From contig JAGOEF010000017.1 of assembly GCA_017997855.1 (NCBI GenBank), forward strand, positions 1 through 14,377: a DNA stretch of 14,377 bases, written 5' to 3'. A program made the translations under genes and the position numbers. Within the stretch, counting starts at the first letter, position 1. Every line of letters begins with the position of its first letter. Origin of the DNA: Bacteroidales bacterium (GTDB lineage Bacteria; Bacteroidota; Bacteroidia; Bacteroidales; ML635J-15). Shown in pieces: positions 1 through 9,042 of the stretch. The notes under the pieces were generated by a model. That model was given only the letters and a program-made list of their open reading frames with translations. It searched no databases and had not been told where the DNA came from.

Positions 1-1692
1 CATCATGGCCGAATGCACGGGAATATAAGGCAATTGTGCGCCATAAGACAGATCCTCCGTATTACCGGAATGTGTTTTATTCACTGATTGTGATAGGGTA
101 TAGCCCGTGTTAATCTGAATCGTGTATTTTCCAGACCTTATTCCGGCTTTTAATCCGGCCTCAATGCCACATGTTTGCACACTCGCAATGTTCTCAGGTG
201 TCCAGTAACCCCTCAGGGTTGGCCTCCACATAATCCAATTGATAATGTTGCTGCGGAAACCGGTTACATCGGCTATCACATCAAATTTTTTATGCTTATA
301 CGACCATTGAACCCCGGCCTCGGCCATCAGCGATTCTTCGGGGAGAAGGTCCGGGTTTCCTCCCGGTTGAAAATACAGATCGTTTAACGAAGGACTGCGC
401 AATACCCGCGAAACATTGGCTTTACACACCAGGGTCGGGAGCAGGCGGTATTCCACCTGAATAGCCGGCATGGGTTTCAGCCAGTTGCTCCCTGACAACT
501 GCTGCCTCAGTGAGACACCCAGACTCAGGGATGAAAATGGTTTGTAAAGCAGAGCCACCGACGCTGATGACTCGGTGCGTTTTACATCGTAATACCGTAA
601 TGAAACACTTTCGTCAGATGTCACATGGTGGAAATCGAACTGTATGAATGTGGACAGGAACCACTTCTTACCAAATTCAATTTTGTAATCCGCAAAATTA
701 TATAGCGAAAAACCATTCCCGATACTGTTCACCGCATTCAGGTAACCACTTCCACTAATGTAATTCCGCAGTGTATATACCGTGTTTTGTTGCGAAAGCG
801 CCGATTGCAGCGACAAGGATGAACGGTTAGTGAATCTGTCATACGAAACGATGGCATGCAGGGCATTGTCGGTTTGCCGGTTCAGGTTGTTGAGGCTGCC
901 ACTCTCGTTGGTCGAAAGTTGGGGTATGCTGCGGCTGCCTTGTTGTGTCCATAATTTCAGTGAAAGCGTATTATTACCCTTAAGCCGAAGGTATGTATCT
1001 GCCATGAATCCGTAACGTTGCCATGCTGCGTTTTCGCGCTGCTGTATGCCTCCGTTTAAAATATCGCGGTTGTAAAACTCAAAGTCGTTGCGCGAAGCCG
1101 AATACCAAAGGCTGCTTTTAATACTGAGTTTTTTTGAAGAATAGGTAGCCGCAGCAGCTTCATCAAAAGTATGAAAACTTCCTGCAGCCGACATCAGATC
1201 GAGTCCAAAGCCCTTATTCCACACCGGATTCCCCGATAAATCGATACGTCCTCCAATAGCAGGGTAGCCCGAGAGCAAGGAAGCTGATCCGTGATACAGG
1301 TCAATACCATCAGCAATGGATAGGGGAATCTGGCTGAAATCGGCCATCCCCAGCAGGGGAGAATTGAGTGGTACACCGTTCCATGTAAGCTGTGTGTGCG
1401 ACGGATCGGTTCCCCGAAACGAAGCTGTGGCCATACTGCCGCGCCCATACGATTTTATGAATACGGGGGTTTTCCAGGCAATGAGCTCCGATACACTGTA
1501 CTGACGGTTGTTGTCGTACACCAGCGAATCGATACGCGTTACTTTAAGTCCGCTTTCGAATACCGAACGCTGAGCGGCAATATTAACGTCGGGCAGCAGG
1601 GTAACTGAATCGTCGAAATATACATCCTGTGAAAATGCATGCGATGCAGTGCAAATCAGGATTAGGACAATATGGGATACCCTGCTTTTAAT
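1..1692 (-). CDS. btuB: BtuB-type TonB-dependent outer-membrane receptor, 3' end cut by window edge
   Basis: Predicted outer-membrane channel that imports corrinoid using TonB energy. The frame is consistent at both ends and at the points I translated in between, giving 564 residues; the last barrel strands lie outside the window. Visible: a signal peptide (residues 1-21, hydrophobic VLILIC stretch, AFS-QD cleavage), a TonB-box-like stretch near 28-38, a plug domain (motifs SMATASFRGTD, QLTWNGVPLNSP, GGRIDLSG), then a beta-barrel with RSPSLNDLYF (432-441) followed by GGNPDLLPEES, the usual conserved block of BtuB-like receptors. There is no N-terminal carboxypeptidase-regulatory-like domain. 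It is the third gene of a cobalamin-riboswitch operon, which is the main ground for assigning B12 rather than iron as substrate. No ATG, GTG or TTG start is available between an in-frame upstream TGA and the signal peptide. ATT at 1692-1690 gives an ideal MKSRVSHIV start and overlaps the upstream TAA. The receptor family is secure; the substrate is inferred. Confidence 0.88.
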   Translation of the reverse strand, partial: MKSRVSHIVLILICTASHAFSQDVYFDDSVTLLPDVNIAAQRSVFESGLKVTRIDSLVYDNNRQYSVSELIAWKTPVFIKSYGRGSMATASFRGTDPSHTQLTWNGVPLNSPLLGMADFSQIPLSIADGIDLYHGSASLLSGYPAIGGRIDLSGNPVWNKGFGLDLMSAAGSFHTFDEAAAATYSSKKLSIKSSLWYSASRNDFEFYNRDILNGGIQQRENAAWQRYGFMADTYLRLKGNNTLSLKLWTQQGSRSIPQLSTNESGSLNNLNRQTDNALHAIVSYDRFTNRSSLSLQSALSQQNTVYTLRNYISGSGYLNAVNSIGNGFSLYNFADYKIEFGKKWFLSTFIQFDFHHVTSDESVSLRYYDVKRTESSASVALLYKPFSSLSLGVSLRQQLSGSNWLKPMPAIQVEYRLLPTLVCKANVSRVLRSPSLNDLYFQPGGNPDLLPEESLMAEAGVQWSYKHKKFDVIADVTGFRSNIINWIMWRPTLRGYWTPENIASVQTCGIEAGLKAGIRSGKYTIQINTGYTLSQSVNKTHSGNTEDLSYGAQLPYIPVHSAMM

Positions 1693-2695
1693 ACTGTATC
1701 AGTTTACGGGTTAAACACGTTCCACTTTGAAGCTGAACCTTCAACCAATAACAACCGGGATTGAGATTTTCGGTGTTAATGCAAGTTGTTTCTTCCGCTA
1801 CAAAAACAGTTTTTCCGTAGATATCGATTATCTGAATTTGCCGTAAAGGCATTTCGGAGCGAAAATAAACCATTCCGGATGAAGGATTGGGATAGATTTC
1901 GAAGTCAACACTCTGGTCGTTTTCAATGGCATTCTGCGCTTCGTTGATTACCCCTACAGCGTCGATATCGAATCCACCGGTGTGAAACGGCGTAGGCCAG
2001 GGGTCGTTTACAATATTACCTTGCGAATCGTAACTTGCAAATTCCGGCTGAATGCAGCCCACTACATCAATCACCCTAACGTGGGTAATACGTTGTTTGT
2101 TGATCAATGCTTCGTCGGGCAGATCAGCCAGGTCGAATGCCACGCCGTAGGGTTGTGTGTAAACCCCGGCAAAACCATAAAACAAGGTCCAGTCGATGGC
2201 TGCAAAACTGTTGTTTTGCAACAGATAGGGCATTTCCGAAACGGTATTGAACCTGAAAAAGTGAATTCCATCGGAACTGACTTCCACAAATGCCAGTTCG
2301 ATAAAAGCCAGCGAAGTTTCGCCGGGCGGGTTGAAAAATCCATTTTCGAAAACCACAAAATCGAAGCCTTCTCCATCGCGTATGGGGTTCTGAAATTGCA
2401 CTGTTGCTATGCCGCCATCGCCAAGACTTACCGTGGATAAGCCATTGGCAGCCCCGCAGGCATCCTGCGCCGTTCCTGCAAAAGCAAGGTTCGAGGTAAT
2501 ATCGCCATTCGTATAAGTCTGGTTCTGATCCGAAATATTAATGTAACCACGCACCACATCGCAGTGAGTAGCCCAGGCCATGATACGCGAATCGTTGTTT
2601 GCAAGCGCATTCGGGTAGTTGTCATACACCTGAGCCTGCAATAATCCAGTAAGCATAAGCAACGCAATAATAAGTATGTGCTTGGAGCAAGGCAT
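1688..2695 (-). CDS. Secreted T9SS protein with GDGG/FENGF/FVEVSSDG motifs, probable surface partner of BtuB
   Basis: 335 residues. A signal peptide (1-21, ending LLQAQ) is followed by one globular domain of about 230 residues and a T9SS sorting domain (about 270-335, YPNP at 278-281, GCYWLKV near the end). The globular domain carries GDGG (92-95), FENGF (116-120), ELAFVEVSSDG (133-143), YGVAFDLADL (183-192), VRVIDVVG (206-213) and GGFDIDAVGV (240-249). These look like strands of an all-beta, possibly calcium- or ligand-binding, surface module. I know the motif set from Bacteroidota cell-surface proteins but not an established function. It starts 3 bases after the stop of the DUF4465 gene, and its stop overlaps the receptor's proposed start, so the three are probably translated as one unit under B12 control. 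A role in binding corrinoid or in covering the receptor is inferred from context only. Start chosen because it gives the signal peptide. Confidence 0.85.
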   Translation of the reverse strand: MPCSKHILIIALLMLTGLLQAQVYDNYPNALANNDSRIMAWATHCDVVRGYINISDQNQTYTNGDITSNLAFAGTAQDACGAANGLSTVSLGDGGIATVQFQNPIRDGEGFDFVVFENGFFNPPGETSLAFIELAFVEVSSDGIHFFRFNTVSEMPYLLQNNSFAAIDWTLFYGFAGVYTQPYGVAFDLADLPDEALINKQRITHVRVIDVVGCIQPEFASYDSQGNIVNDPWPTPFHTGGFDIDAVGVINEAQNAIENDQSVDFEIYPNPSSGMVYFRSEMPLRQIQIIDIYGKTVFVAEETTCINTENLNPGCYWLKVQLQSGTCLTRKLIQY

Positions 2696-2698
2696 GTT

Positions 2699-3946
2699 TT
2701 AGCGGATAATCAGTTTTTGGACATCGCGCTGGCCATTGGAAAGGATTTCGATCTGGTACACTCCGGAAGCCAATTCCGAAACCGGGAGTTGAACCAAAGT
2801 GCCCGTGGATAGCGTTGAAACCACACAGCGTCCCTGTAAGTCGTAAACATTAATGCCGGAACCTGAAGGAATGTTGGCAATATTCACAAAATCGCTGCAA
2901 GGGTTGGGATATACCGAAACTGTGCTGAATCCGGCAGTATGAACCCCTACTCCATCTACCACGACAGTTATCTGCTTTTGGATGCTATGGCCGGGTGATA
3001 ATGCAAAAACGTCAGATACCGTCACATAATACGTTGTTGTTTCGGTCGGATTGGCGGTTACCGTTTGTCCCGAAACCGAGCTCAGACTTTGGTCACCCTG
3101 CCACGCAAAGTTGTAAGGTTGTATTCCACCACCGGCAAGAACAGTCAGGTCAACCGATTCACCTTCGTTGATGGTTATCAGCGCAGGTGTTTCGACGTAC
3201 ATTTCGGGCAAGCTTGATAAAAAATACTCCGAGTTAAAATCATCAATACAGAAATACGCAGGTGTATTGATGCCAAAGCTACCCATGTCATCCGAAACGA
3301 GCAGGAACTCCAGTTTATAGACATTTCCCAGTGACGACAGATCAATAAAACGCCAGAAATCGTACTTGAAATCGTACAGGTTGTTTTCGAAACGATAGTC
3401 TGCCAGAATGTACTCCTGAGTTGTCATTGCCGGGAGCATTTCCGACATGTGGGCATTTACAATCAGTTTCAGATAGTGATTGTTACTGCTGTAGAAATCG
3501 TTGTCAGCCATGTAGAGCGAGGCATTGGCGTTAAGGCAAATCCATGTTCCAAACAGCGCAACCGGCTGGTTATCGCTTCGCTGAATCACGCAGGGAATGG
3601 GTTCATTATTGTTCATCCAGTCGCTCATTACATAGGCGGTGGCATAGTTTTCGGAATTCATAAATCCAACACCGGCTGCACTGCTGTACATATTTTGCCA
3701 GTTGTAGGTGGTGTTGTCGGTTTCGTTGGTATACGACCAACCCAGCCATGATTCATAGGCATCGTCGTACACGTTGATAAAATTCCATCCTGCCGACGTA
3801 AACATACCCGAACCGTCGGAGCCGTTCCAGTGACTTTCCGGTTGAAGTGTAAGCTCTTCAAAATCGACATTTTGTTGTGCGCTCACCGGTACACAGGTAC
3901 AAATAGCAAGCAGCGCGGCTGTTGCAAAAAATTCAAATCTTTTCAT
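2699..3946 (-). CDS. DUF4465 protein with Ig/PKD-like domain and T9SS sorting tail, first gene of the B12 operon
   Basis: 415 residues from the ATG at 3946. That start begins MKRFEFF and gives a clean signal peptide ending VSAQQ; two further in-frame ATGs lie upstream (3970, 3958) and look non-functional. Domains: signal (1-23); DUF4465 (about 26-240), recognised by FEELTL, SHWNGSD, the W-GWSYTN-x-TD block, YSSAAGVGFMNSENYATAY and ILADYRF; an Ig/PKD-like domain (about 255-332) with the ANPTETTTYYVTVSD signature; a T9SS type A sorting domain (about 342-415, YPNP at 346-349, GVYQIEIL, ending KLIIR). The product should be exported by T9SS and held at the surface. It is the first gene behind a cobalamin riboswitch and shares the operon with a BtuB-like receptor. 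To my recollection DUF4465 genes recur beside such receptors in Bacteroidota, so corrinoid binding or delivery is a reasonable inference, not shown by any residue here. Confidence 0.88.
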   Translation of the reverse strand: MKRFEFFATAALLAICTCVPVSAQQNVDFEELTLQPESHWNGSDGSGMFTSAGWNFINVYDDAYESWLGWSYTNETDNTTYNWQNMYSSAAGVGFMNSENYATAYVMSDWMNNNEPIPCVIQRSDNQPVALFGTWICLNANASLYMADNDFYSSNNHYLKLIVNAHMSEMLPAMTTQEYILADYRFENNLYDFKYDFWRFIDLSSLGNVYKLEFLLVSDDMGSFGINTPAYFCIDDFNSEYFLSSLPEMYVETPALITINEGESVDLTVLAGGGIQPYNFAWQGDQSLSSVSGQTVTANPTETTTYYVTVSDVFALSPGHSIQKQITVVVDGVGVHTAGFSTVSVYPNPCSDFVNIANIPSGSGINVYDLQGRCVVSTLSTGTLVQLPVSELASGVYQIEILSNGQRDVQKLIIR

Positions 3947-4040
3947 AGTTCCATCCATTAAGTAAAACATTACATAACATTACACCACGTGTTACTGTTT
4001 GTAAGTCTTTGGGCATCAGGGGGAAATTTATTCCGTCCTT

Positions 4041-4060
4041 GGCTTTTATACCCGAAAGCC
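4041..4060 (-). promoter_or_regulatory. Hairpin in the riboswitch leader, possible part of the expression platform
   Basis: On the minus strand GGCTTT and AAAGCC form a 6-bp stem 19 bases after the B12 box and about 95 bases before the operon start codon. No U-run follows, so it is not a standard intrinsic terminator. It may be part of the switching structure or only a spacer stem. Together with the long leader this leans towards control of translation rather than termination, but that is inference. Confidence 0.3.
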
Positions 4061-4076
4061 TTAAAAACATTGTGTA

Positions 4077-4256
4077 TTGGCAGGTCTTCTGACTTACTCT
4101 GCGTTACCGGCCTTCCCATCTCAGGTGTGGATCCTGATTCATGACAGTGGCATAATCGGTAACGGCTTTTTAAAGAGCTTACAGCAGCGGGTACTGTCTG
4201 GGATTTTCACCCGGTTCCCTTTTCATCCGCCGGTTGACCCGACGGAAACCATTACG
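4077..4256 (-). ncRNA. Cobalamin (vitamin B12) riboswitch
   Basis: Read on the minus strand, the region contains the family hallmarks in order: a P3-type hairpin (CCGTCGG with CCGGCGG), GATGAAAAGGGAA, GGTGAAAATCCC, GACAGTACCCGCTGCTGTAAG, GCCACTG, GGGAAGGC, and the 3' B12 box AGTAAGTCAGAAGACCTGCC (4098-4079). Spacing and order match known B12 aptamers. It lies about 130 bases upstream of the DUF4465/T9SS/BtuB operon on the same strand. When B12 is bound it is expected to lower expression of that operon. The exact 5' boundary is approximate. Confidence 0.95.
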
Positions 4257-4260
4257 GCAA

Positions 4261-4268
4261 CAAAAATA
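4261..4268 (-). promoter_or_regulatory. Probable -7 box of the riboswitch operon promoter
   Basis: The minus strand reads TATTTTTG, an exact match to the Bacteroidota -7 consensus TAnnTTTG, directly upstream of the riboswitch, so transcription would begin at about its 5' edge. No TTTG -33 element is found at the usual 19-21 base spacing. The call rests on the -7 box and its position. Confidence 0.42.
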
Positions 4269-5510: not shown

Positions 5511-5708
5511 TGTATTATTGAGAATGAATTTTGAGAATAGGTAAAGGTAAACTAAATATTCAAACAAAGGACTTGAAAATCAAATTATTAATAAATGCAT
5601 TAGAATGCACATTAGAAAATTTCACAATAATTGGGTTTATTTGACATTATTTTAAAATATTTTTTGTATATTAAATCTAATTTGGTTAAATTGCAAAAAA
5701 CTTCACCG
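5511..5708. other. AT-rich divergent intergenic region, no confident promoter
   Basis: About 200 bases between the divergent flavoprotein gene and Asp-box gene. It must hold promoters for both. On the minus strand TACCTTTA (5549-5542) is a partial -7 box. On the plus strand several T-rich TTTG motifs lie between 5640 and 5693, but none pairs at proper spacing with a good -7 box. No RNA gene or conserved ORF is visible. Confidence 0.5.
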
Positions 5709-7835
5709 ATGAAAACTTTTTTCTTTATTCTTTGGGGGTTGCTGTTATTAACCCATGCTTCTACAGGGCAGTGGGTATGGCAAAATCCCACACCAACAGG
5801 GGAATCGATCTATGCGATTATTTTTGTTGATTCTCAAACAGGCTATGCATCCGGTGGAGCCGGGCATATAATTAAAACGACAAACGGAGGATTGTCGTGG
5901 TATTCAATTGGAAGCCTTGGTGATGATTATATTATGTCGCTGTCTTTTCTTAGCGAAGACAGTGGATTTGCATTCGGAAATGAAGGAAATCTATATTATA
6001 CCGATGATGGAGGCAATGAATGGACCATAATGGAAACAGGCTATGAAGATGAGAATTTTATGTCCGGTCATTTTATTAATTCCATGGTTGGACTAATTGC
6101 CTGCCGGAATGGAAAAATTCTGCGAACTACTGATGGTGGTAACTCGTGGAGTGTTGCATTCAGTACCATGGATAAAAACATTTGGGCTATGCAATTTGTT
6201 AACGAGAATACCGGTTATATTTGTTGCGATGGAGGTTATGTGTACAAAACCACCAACCAAGGAGCAAACTGGACAGCCAAACCTACGGGCTCATCTGAGT
6301 TTCTGAGTTCTTTGTTTTTTACTGATGAAAATACAGGCTACGCTTGTGGTTTTTTCGGAACCATGATGAAAACTACCGATGGGGGAAATAACTGGATTAC
6401 GCAAACGGTGGGAGAAGATATTAATTTCACCGAGTCGTATTTAACAAAATGTTTTTTTACAGATGCTAATCATGGCTGGGTAGGAAACGACTTTGGTGAT
6501 ATTTTCATTACCATTGATGGGGGAACAACATGGGAGTTGCAGGCCATCACGAACGACCAGATGATTAACGCGATATGCGCTACCTCAACAGGAACATTAT
6601 TTGTTGCAAATATGCTGGGAGAAATTTACCGGTCGAATAACTCCGGAGCATCGTGGATATTGATGACCGACAAACTCACAGAAGATTATTGCCTGCTCTA
6701 TAATGTTGAATTCTACGACGATAATGCAGGTATTGCAGTTGGTATCAGAGGGAACCTGTTACGCACTTCAGATGGAGGAAACACATGGGAACTTGATAAA
6801 TTCAATGATGATCTCGATTTTACCGATGTAGAATATCTTGGGGAAAACAACATAGTAATCAGCACCAACTACGGTCAGGTAATGCTTTCGGATGACGGGG
6901 GTGAGACATGGGAAACCGTGCTGCTTATGAATAATTTTCTGATTACAAGTATTTTCTTTACCAATGAGCTTATCGGGTATGCAGCAGGCTCCAACGGACA
7001 CGTTTTTAAAACTACCGACGGAGGCCATAGTTGGACAGAACAGAACTCAACAACCAATAGTTATCTGCAGGATATATTTTTCACCAATGATACAGTTGGC
7101 TATGCTGTAGGGTCGTATCATACAACTATAAAAACCATTGATGGCGGTAATACATGGCAGGATTTGGGAGTTTTTGATGATAACAGCAGTTTGTATTCTG
7201 TGGCTTTTATAAATAATGACACAGGATTTGTTTGCGGTTATATAGCCGAAAACTTCAATAGCCAAACAGGCGAATTCACAGCAATTCCAGTAATTAAAAA
7301 AACCTATGACGGAGGAGTAAACTGGCAGCTTGTTGAGGGAATTTCTTCGCAAAGCGTTTGGTTCAACGACATCATGTTTAACGAAGGCGACACAGCATAT
7401 GTGGCAGGCATGAGCGGAGCTTTTTTAATGTCGGTTGATACAGGAGAAACCTGGGAAACCATACCTCGTTTTACCTATCAGGATCTTAACGCTATTGCAG
7501 AAACCCCTGCCGGTCATTTGTATGTTGTTGGTGCGAATACTACAATCATGAAGCATCGTTACGCACCCAAAACCACATCCAATGAACCCATTGCCTCACA
7601 AAAACAGATTTATGTTTTCCCCAACCCTGCCAATAATTTGCTCAACATCAGCATTGATGATCGTGAAAAGGGATATTTCAGTATTTTCGACCTGAACGGC
7701 CGGTGTGTAATGTACGGTGATGTATTGCCGGTAATCAATATCAGCGAATTGCATGCCGGAGTTTATATTCTTGAGGTTAAATACCCAAACAACACCTACC
7801 GTACAAGGTTTGTAAAACAACATCAACGACCCTAA
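5709..7835 (+). CDS. Secreted Asp-box (Ycf48/BNR-like) beta-propeller protein with T9SS sorting domain
   Basis: 708 residues from the ATG at 5709 (MKTFFFILWGLLLLTHASTGQ), which gives a clean signal peptide; the 26-residue in-frame extension upstream is AT-rich and is left out. The body is 13 Asp-box repeats of the form (T/S)-x-D-G-G-x-x-W, with the box Trp at residues 64, 105, 147, 188, 229, 275, 316, 360, 401, 442, 483, 539 and 582. Most are 41-46 apart, each preceded by a GYA-x-G-x-x-G type strand. A decayed 14th unit (VVGANTTIMKHR, 606-617) suggests 14 blades, perhaps two seven-bladed propellers. A T9SS sorting domain follows (634-708, FPNP at 637-640, GVYILEV). No sialidase catalytic residues are evident, so a binding or structural surface role is more likely than hydrolysis. 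Function is not known. Confidence 0.88.
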   Translation: MKTFFFILWGLLLLTHASTGQWVWQNPTPTGESIYAIIFVDSQTGYASGGAGHIIKTTNGGLSWYSIGSLGDDYIMSLSFLSEDSGFAFGNEGNLYYTDDGGNEWTIMETGYEDENFMSGHFINSMVGLIACRNGKILRTTDGGNSWSVAFSTMDKNIWAMQFVNENTGYICCDGGYVYKTTNQGANWTAKPTGSSEFLSSLFFTDENTGYACGFFGTMMKTTDGGNNWITQTVGEDINFTESYLTKCFFTDANHGWVGNDFGDIFITIDGGTTWELQAITNDQMINAICATSTGTLFVANMLGEIYRSNNSGASWILMTDKLTEDYCLLYNVEFYDDNAGIAVGIRGNLLRTSDGGNTWELDKFNDDLDFTDVEYLGENNIVISTNYGQVMLSDDGGETWETVLLMNNFLITSIFFTNELIGYAAGSNGHVFKTTDGGHSWTEQNSTTNSYLQDIFFTNDTVGYAVGSYHTTIKTIDGGNTWQDLGVFDDNSSLYSVAFINNDTGFVCGYIAENFNSQTGEFTAIPVIKKTYDGGVNWQLVEGISSQSVWFNDIMFNEGDTAYVAGMSGAFLMSVDTGETWETIPRFTYQDLNAIAETPAGHLYVVGANTTIMKHRYAPKTTSNEPIASQKQIYVFPNPANNLLNISIDDREKGYFSIFDLNGRCVMYGDVLPVINISELHAGVYILEVKYPNNTYRTRFVKQHQRP

Positions 7836-7962: not shown

Positions 7963-9042
7963 ATGACAAGGCTTCTTTTTCTTTTCATAGTATTAGCAAT
8001 CGCAAAAATAGCTGTTTCGCAAGATTACATCTTCTGGGGCGATTACACGAATGGGAATATATACAGATCTGACGTTAATGGCGAGGACATTACAATAATC
8101 GCATCCGGTTATTATCAGGTGCGCACAGTTACAGTTGACAATAAATATTTTCGTGTGTATTGGGCAGTGGGAAATCAGGGCGTATATTCGGCAAACTTCG
8201 ATGGTTCCGAATTAATTCAAATACTGAATTACGGAGTTACCATTGGTCGAATAGAATTTGACTATCTGAACGACAGGATATTCTTTACAGAGAGTTATGT
8301 AGGCAATATCAAATCTTGCAAAATTGACGGCTCCGATATACAGCTTCTTGTCACGGGGACAGGATTGATACAAGGGTTAGGGGTTGACCCTGGTCGACAG
8401 TTCATTTTCTGGACAGATCAGGATTCAGGGGATACATACCGAGCCTATACAGATGGTTCTGGACAAACAACAATTCGTGAAACTACAACATCGCTATACG
8501 ATTTGGAGCTTGATGTTAAACATATGAAGATTTATTTCTCCGACAGGACCAACGATGAAATACAGGTGATGGATTACGATGGAGGCAATCTCCAATCGCT
8601 TGTAAACAGCAATGGGGTGATGGGATCAATGAGTACTGATTTCGATGATGAATATCTTTACTGGATAGAGCGAGAAAACGGATATATAAAAAGGTCGAAG
8701 CTTGATGGCTCTGAAGTTACCACAATCATTAATAATCAGGGCAGCAATATGGGCGGTCAGGATGTTACTCAGAATTACTTTATTTCGGGAATCCCGATTT
8801 CTGAAACACAATCGGAGTTTCGGATTTATCCAAATCCATGCTCTACATTAATTTACTGCAACAACACAAGTGACACCGAAATCAGAATTTATAGTACGGA
8901 CAGAAAGCTCGTTTTGGCAACACGTATCGATGCTTATGATCCCATTGATATATCAGCACTGAACAATGGGGCTTATATTTTAAATTGTAAAACTGGAGAC
9001 GGCATTACTACGTCGAAAATCGTGGTAAAAAACGAAAAGTAA
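7963..9042 (+). CDS. Secreted six-repeat YWTD (LDL-receptor class B-like) beta-propeller with T9SS sorting domain
   Basis: 359 residues. A signal peptide (1-19, ending AVSQ) is followed by six YWTD-type repeats starting at residues 22 (YIFWGD), 64 (RVYWAV), 105 (RIFFTE), 147 (FIFWTD), 189 (KIYFSD) and 231 (YLYWIE). Each continues with GxIYRSDxDGSE-like residues. The period is 41-42 residues and six is the number needed to close a YWTD propeller. The T9SS sorting domain spans about 285-359 (YPNP 289-292, GAYILNC, ending KIVVKNEK). It should be a surface or released binding protein. YWTD propellers are best known as protein-protein modules in animal receptors; the bacterial ligand is unknown. 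It follows another T9SS propeller on the same strand and runs convergent with pgi. Confidence 0.88.
   Translation: MTRLLFLFIVLAIAKIAVSQDYIFWGDYTNGNIYRSDVNGEDITIIASGYYQVRTVTVDNKYFRVYWAVGNQGVYSANFDGSELIQILNYGVTIGRIEFDYLNDRIFFTESYVGNIKSCKIDGSDIQLLVTGTGLIQGLGVDPGRQFIFWTDQDSGDTYRAYTDGSGQTTIRETTTSLYDLELDVKHMKIYFSDRTNDEIQVMDYDGGNLQSLVNSNGVMGSMSTDFDDEYLYWIERENGYIKRSKLDGSEVTTIINNQGSNMGGQDVTQNYFISGIPISETQSEFRIYPNPCSTLIYCNNTSDTEIRIYSTDRKLVLATRIDAYDPIDISALNNGAYILNCKTGDGITTSKIVVKNEK

Follow-up and report, generated by a model that had tools for sequence, protein, structure and literature searches.

The 14,377-nucleotide window analyzed here (Bacteroidales bacterium, assembly GCA_017997855.1, contig JAGOEF010000017.1) carries on its minus strand a cobalamin riboswitch followed by a DUF4465 gene, a gene for a protein with a FENGF motif, and a TonB-dependent receptor gene that is cut at the left edge. 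These four elements were named in the original prediction, and all of them were detected (RF00174, PF14717, Por_Secre_tail, and plug plus barrel, respectively). The riboswitch at the operon head (4062..4268, minus strand) matched RF00174 over its full length (covariance model search of the window; model positions 1 to 189 of 189; 103.7 bits versus a gathering score of 31.5; E = 1.7e-25). Three bases separate the DUF4465 stop codon, which ends at 2699, from the FENGF ATG, which begins at 2695, as had been predicted. We are fairly confident that the operon is repressed by B12 and serves the capture of corrinoids and their import across the outer membrane.

The DUF4465 protein (2699..3946, minus strand) has 415 amino acids if translated from the ATG at 3946; its frame is open from the ATG at 3970. 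It consists of a signal peptide, a DUF4465 domain, a weak Ig-like linker, and a type A sorting tail of the type IX secretion system (T9SS). The domain (PF14717; 3236..3760, minus strand; residues 71 to 245 of the 423-amino-acid reading) scored 112.9 bits (cutoff, 25). The DUF4465 family is the BtuJ family of published B12 binders. In PMC12751083, the structures of BtuJ1 and BtuJ2 were solved with B12, and the Kd of BtuJ1 is sub-nanomolar; in PMC13398666, B12 binding is reported for eight members that are only distantly related to one another, as is the conservation of a (G/N)TPAY loop. This HI-loop B12-binding motif of DUF4465 proteins (PMC13398666) is present in the window protein as NTPAY (3254..3268, minus strand; N227, T228, P229, and, at the position of the B12-binding Tyr, Y231). 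Sequence matches among solved structures were 9hmu_A (E = 8.3e-13), 4jqr_A (1e-9), and BtuJ2 (9i2l_B; 2.6e-4). We predict that the protein binds corrinoids. With BtuJ1 and BtuJ2 of Bacteroides thetaiotaomicron (PF14717/IPR027828) it shares the domain, the NTPAY loop, and the location in a B12-riboswitch operon with btuB, but it has a T9SS tail where BtuJ has a lipid anchor. The tail (2705..2914, minus strand) scored 52.6 bits with PF18962 (cutoff, 27) and 50 bits with TIGR04183 (cutoff, 23). By eye, the N terminus MKRFEFFATAALLAICTCVPVSAQQ could plausibly be cleaved at VSA-Q; its hydrophobic stretch contains two Cys residues, but a convincing lipobox is lacking. More than 70% of the DUF4465 family are described as lipoproteins and the remainder as having periplasmic signals (PMC13398666), and the main text of that article contains none of the terms "T9SS," "type IX," and "sorting."

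The FENGF protein (P0001; 1688..2695, minus strand; 335 amino acids) has a signal peptide, a BtuH-like core domain (1931..2632, minus strand), and a T9SS type A sorting tail (1697..1897, minus strand; PF18962, 41.3 bits; cutoff, 27). Its N terminus MPCSKHILIIALLMLTGLLQAQ reads by eye as a signal peptide without a lipobox, and both accessory proteins exceeded the cutoff of the TIGR04183 tail model. The predicted signal peptides and sorting tails were thus found on both proteins, the tails above the Pfam cutoff and the signal peptides by eye. Since both are T9SS tailed, there are T9SS equivalents of the lipoproteins BtuJ and BtuH, and export of both window proteins by this system is probable.

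The receptor (1..1692, minus strand, cut at base 1) comprises a TonB-dependent plug and barrel (Pfam). Its best solved relatives are 8bmx_C (E = 2.7e-76), 8p97_A (4.5e-70), and 8p98_A (5.1e-70; named BtuB), chains which we take to be Bacteroides BtuB. Escherichia coli BtuB (1nqf) matched at E = 2.9e-6. TIGR01779 was the best NCBIfam row, at 78.3 bits; its cutoff of 599.7 was missed because the protein is truncated and divergent. We therefore use the label "BtuB-type," given the missed cutoff on the one hand and the best NCBIfam row and the strong matches to solved BtuB chains on the other. In the receptor frame, which is open from 1698, no ATG, GTG, or TTG occurs before 1521, a position behind the signal peptide. 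The likely start is the ATT at 1692-1690, which overlaps the FENGF stop codon (ATTAA). The predicted short overlap exists if this ATT is the start codon and is to that extent not fixed. The receptors of two related loci (loci are designated L and genomes G), L020 and L079, likewise have no canonical start that could be used; in L001 and L003, a TTG lies just ahead of the ATT.

A genome scan confirmed at least 550 stretches, of which the best 80 by similarity were kept, blind to context. Neighbors were counted on the same strand within 6 kb using home-made models; riboswitches were called with a local nhmmer model, plus Rfam on empty loci, and matches on another contig were not used even if their coordinates fell inside the locus range. 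Near FENGF in these 80 loci, we found a riboswitch in 64, BtuB in 51, BtuJ in 26, a BtuG-type gene in 60, and a DUF4430-type gene in 15. A riboswitch or BtuB lay beside FENGF in 73 loci according to the local models and in 74 with L076 added by Rfam. All local-model riboswitches were on the FENGF strand, and approximately 0.1 riboswitch neighbors would be expected by chance in 80 loci, assuming 3.6-Mb genomes. RF00174 was matched in 75 of the 80 genomes (31/33 plus 44/47), exactly once in 45 of the 75. The predicted three-gene order recurred as riboswitch-DUF4465-FENGF-BtuB in 12 of the 80 loci; other orders were common, e.g., riboswitch-BtuB-DUF4465-FENGF in the class sample.

That sample, an even one of 159 genomes, contained 47 genomes with a strong FENGF match (including the center genome G001, chosen for having one). 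Local models placed a riboswitch or BtuB at 34 of the 47 loci and any partner at 35; with Rfam, which added L102 and L111, the numbers were 36 and 37, leaving 10 with none. Ten weaker class-sample loci that were fetched, paralog arrays among them, all lacked B12 context (the weak matches of G240 were not fetched). In the distant loci of the phylum sample, BtuB was present in 14 of 14 and a riboswitch in 4 of 14. The arrangement named as speaking against the original prediction, in which most accessory genes would lack riboswitches and adjoin non-B12 receptors, was thus not seen in the close family (74/80); the ten weaker loci are without B12 context. In L010 (a 3-kb contig), L015, L036, and L043, FENGF lies directly behind the riboswitch, and no BtuB or DUF4465 was found in the locus; L076 has the riboswitch and then FENGF directly, and no BtuB was found there. 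These five are possible stand-alone B12-regulated units. FENGF genes occur in tandem within one locus in L007, L028, and L055.

No Pfam domain was detected in the FENGF core, and a direct sequence search of the PDB with the protein returned nothing useful. With the A2 profile (hmmsearch), the top PDB match was 8blw_B, at a merely suggestive E of 0.044. Foldseek matches of the whole protein were set aside, as the sorting tail and long glycosidase alignments of poor quality prevailed among them; because of this swamping, the core was modeled alone. A BtuH-bearing chain ranked first in both structure searches with the modeled core, the predicted structure of which fits the fold of the BtuH B12-binding domain (7biz and 8blw). 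Discoidin and CBM families may be distant structural kin. Profile comparison by hhalign suggested that the sequence link is stronger through intermediates than directly. As a bridge we used distant matches from the phylum sample (L084-L096), which adjoin BtuB-like receptors; another locus of that sample, L097, encodes a genuine PKD-BtuH lipoprotein. FENGF aligned to the bridge group with a P of 99.6, an E of 6e-24, and a score of 164, and the bridge group to BtuH with a P of 94.8, an E of 5e-8, and a score of 62; directly, FENGF and BtuH gave a P of 81, an E of 1.2e-5, and a score of 43. As controls, shuffling the columns 60 times for each comparison gave at most 22.6, and reversed and unrelated profiles scored 13 to 19. 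In L090 (8636-9739, minus strand), a DUF5522 domain is N-terminal in the frame of a BtuB-linked FENGF-like protein, perhaps due to an upstream frame extension.

In the profile alignment, the FENGF motif (2336..2350, minus strand) pairs with LGNAY/LGNAF of BtuH. BtuH2 was numbered by adding an offset of 100 to the 7biz sequence, which reproduces Gln333, Asn399, Phe401, Tyr510, Trp511, Trp577, and Leu578. The motif Asn faces Asn399, which contacts the phosphate, and the last motif Phe faces Phe401 at the lower ligand (contacts as given in PMC8941943). All 128 strong FENGF domains keep this Asn (127 distinct, since L099 repeats L069; rows gapped at this column were left out), as do 13 of 13 intermediates, 36 of 36 BtuH sequences, and L097. 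A Phe at +2 follows it in 110 of the 128 strong domains and in the window protein. By contrast, the Asn is gone in all 37 domains of the paralog arrays L140-L143, which have no B12 context. These arrays are multidomain T9SS proteins with divergent FENGF-like domains, in which the Asn is replaced by Ser, Thr, Ile, or Val; five class-sample genomes have 16 to 19 matches. Six solitary weak matches had three N and three M in this column; among solitary FENGF-like domains, those of L147-L149 have the motif FEMGKY, are followed by an apparent OmpA-type C terminus (by eye), and have no B12 context. The residue opposite Gln333 is not Gln in FENGF (by eye), and the pocket loops with the BtuH2 contacts Gln333, His476, Tyr510, Trp511, Trp577, and Leu578 could not be aligned.

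Judged from sequence profiles and the modeled structure, the FENGF core appears to be remotely related to the B12-binding domain of BtuH. With the C-terminal domain of BtuH (7biz, BtuH2; 8blw, BtuGH) it shares the best-matching fold, the profile link, and the Asn399 and Phe401 positions, but its sequence is remote, PKD domains are absent, a T9SS tail replaces the lipid anchor, and the pocket loops are unalignable. BtuH proteins are lipoproteins with a PKD or beta-propeller N terminus, or the domain alone, and the FENGF protein is neither; owing to its T9SS tail and the lack of PKD, we filed it as BtuH-like rather than BtuH. It probably binds corrinoids.

DUF4465 was above the cutoff in 40 of the 159 class-sample genomes, 35 of which have a strong FENGF match (11.8 expected; Fisher, 1e-19). 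According to coordinates, the two lie on the same contig within a few kilobases in 24 of the 35 genomes and not in the other 11. Among the remaining five DUF4465 genomes, G225 and G260 have a canonical BtuH gene adjoining the DUF4465 gene. Strong matches to canonical BtuH occur in 3 of the 159 genomes, none of them with FENGF, and a fourth, G199, has a weak one. From the pairing with DUF4465 and this lack of overlap, FENGF and BtuH seem to occupy the same slot as partners of DUF4465 in B12 operons. Furthermore, DUF4465 and FENGF domains were found in a single reading frame in L064, L066, and L106; the fused DUF4465 domain was confirmed by Pfam in L064, L066, and the genome of L106. The B. thetaiotaomicron BtuG-BtuH fusion (BtuGH) is a precedent for uniting two B12-binding domains in a single surface protein, whereas here DUF4465 is joined to a BtuH-like domain, with a T9SS tail detected by Pfam in L066 and by the local model only in L064. 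L077 may fuse DUF4430-like and FENGF domains (local model only).

T9SS tails are the rule for both protein types. Pfam found them on 81 of 83 FENGF proteins, and a local tail model found them on 124 of the 128 strong ones; for DUF4465 proteins, the numbers were 22 of 26 (Pfam) and 44 of 49 (local model; 3 of the others have a lipobox and 2 are unclassified). In L030, L035 (partly by eye), and L054, the BtuJ neighbor of a T9SS FENGF protein has a lipobox, as though either anchor would serve. SprA_N was present in 31 of 33 genomes of relatives (part of the best 80, picked mostly for BtuB in view) and in 0 of 14 controls. The BtuG-type proteins behave differently according to position: directly after BtuB, 0 of 54 copies have a tail (41 with a lipobox and 13 with unclassified starts), versus 21 of 70 elsewhere (42 with a lipobox and 7 unclassified; Fisher, 1.4e-6, with unclassified copies counted as tailless and relatedness ignored). 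These calls were made with a local model; 9 of 10 checked proteins have Pfam DUF5074. The exception, the L029:1849 protein, was at first sight a candidate separate family, but the local model merges it with the BtuG type. A DUF5074 gene follows btuB in, e.g., L001, L003, L014, and L071. T9SS-tailed DUF5074 propellers are encoded in L013 (8628-9911), L033 (8685-9983), and L060 (8591-9868), and L013 also has a tailless copy after BtuB. Sorting tails were also found at L008, L014, and L031.

Thus, the original prediction that T9SS-exported proteins may stand in for lipoproteins is supported in part, for the BtuJ- and BtuH-type proteins, but the lipoprotein machine is not replaced as a whole, since in relatives a BtuG-type lipoprotein commonly comes directly after BtuB. 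The window resembles the Bacteroides BtuB-BtuG complex (8blw, 8bmx, 8p97, and 8p98) in its BtuB-type receptor; in contrast to it, the BtuG of the window, if present, lies outside, and some relatives add T9SS-tailed DUF5074 copies. The position directly after BtuB is beyond the left edge of the window, where we expect btuG.

Many Bacteroidales loci, several of them in rumen or gut metagenome-assembled genomes, encode a DUF4430-containing T9SS protein between the riboswitch and FENGF (L004:8787-9998 and L058:8818-10002, both plus strand, and 13 similar ones). Pfam DUF4430 was matched in 11 of these 15 at an E cutoff of 0.01 and a T9SS tail in all 15. Because the L058 protein showed no transcobalamin match when compared by sequence with solved structures, a relation to transcobalamins is based on Pfam and on PMC4350170, according to which vertebrate transcobalamins also contain DUF4430. 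A T9SS-exported, transcobalamin-like B12 binder is possible.

We propose the following scheme. When corrinoids are scarce, the riboswitch would permit expression of the operon, as expected from its family. The DUF4465 and FENGF proteins would cross the inner membrane by means of their signal peptides and be exported by the T9SS, which would remove the tails and leave the domains anchored on surface lipopolysaccharide (LPS) or released. Outside the cell, both would bind corrinoids tightly and relay them from the BtuJ-type to the BtuH-type protein and on to the receptor; there, the final transfer to BtuB is probably made by a BtuG-type lid with a lipid anchor. In PMC12751083, BtuJ and BtuG are proposed to hold the B12 lower ligand outward and BtuH to hold it inward, giving a transfer from BtuJ to BtuH to BtuBG; the B12 lipoproteins of B. 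thetaiotaomicron are proposed to associate only transiently with BtuBG (PMC10404256 and PMC8941943). The window combines the same two kinds of binders, T9SS tailed, with BtuB. Whether this holds throughout the Bacteroidia, i.e., whether B12 capture is usually T9SS exported (BtuJ- and BtuH-type proteins, in some lineages also extra BtuG-type propellers and transcobalamin-like DUF4430 proteins), with only the BtuG lid on BtuB lipid anchored and lipoprotein BtuH the minority form of its superfamily in the class, we consider an even question.

Among the alternatives, we hold it unlikely, though worth considering, that the proteins are not kept on LPS but released as soluble or vesicle-borne, siderophore-like B12 scavengers. 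Type A T9SS cargo may be anchored or released. BtuJ acts on extracellular vesicles in B. thetaiotaomicron (PMC12751083). Nevertheless, no sequence feature separates the two fates, and cotranscription with BtuB equally suits use at the cell surface. We give still less credence to a scheme in which DUF4465 is the B12 binder and FENGF a nonbinding helper, that is, a partner of BtuB in docking, transfer, or assembly. Such a role would resemble that of BtuL and BtuK2 of B. thetaiotaomicron operons, for which PMC12751083 reports no cobalamin binding, and only two of eight BtuH2 contacts (PMC8941943) map confidently to FENGF; however, the phosphate-contact Asn is present in all close relatives and in none of the array domains, and FENGF stands right behind riboswitches in four loci where neither BtuB nor DUF4465 was found. 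Least plausible is a discoidin-like, carbohydrate- or surface-binding FENGF domain with another ligand, coregulated with B12 uptake, against which speak the BtuH-bearing chain on top of both core searches, the strong linkage to riboswitch, BtuB, and BtuJ, and the DUF4465 fusion in three loci.

Corrinoid capture by T9SS-exported BtuJ- and BtuH-type proteins would be new in its export route, the tasks being known, and in tying a large family to BtuH. Surface B12 capture in Bacteroidota has so far been known from lipoproteins of gut Bacteroides, and we found no T9SS-exported B12 binders in titles and abstract openings of the open-access literature (subscription papers and preprints were outside coverage). 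The FENGF family, which comprises 6,968 of 8,000 scored database candidates (some perhaps via the tail alone), looks like a large, unnamed, and widespread distant cousin of the gut-bacterial B12-binding protein. If this is true, predictions of a ligand, a binding residue, and an export route become available for a family without a Pfam entry, and type IX secretion is connected with vitamin scavenging, which we did not find done in the literature searched. The lipid-anchored BtuG beside BtuB and the T9SS-tailed capture proteins would then follow a rule by which parts fixed at the gate are distinguished from parts free to roam or be released.

On the plus strand of the window, at 5631-7835 and 7963-9042, two more T9SS-tailed proteins are encoded, seemingly unrelated to B12. 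We rejected these genes as members of the system, as no riboswitch was found upstream and an unrelated gene intervenes. The proteins carry YCF48/BNR repeats and LDL-receptor class B/DUF5050 repeats.

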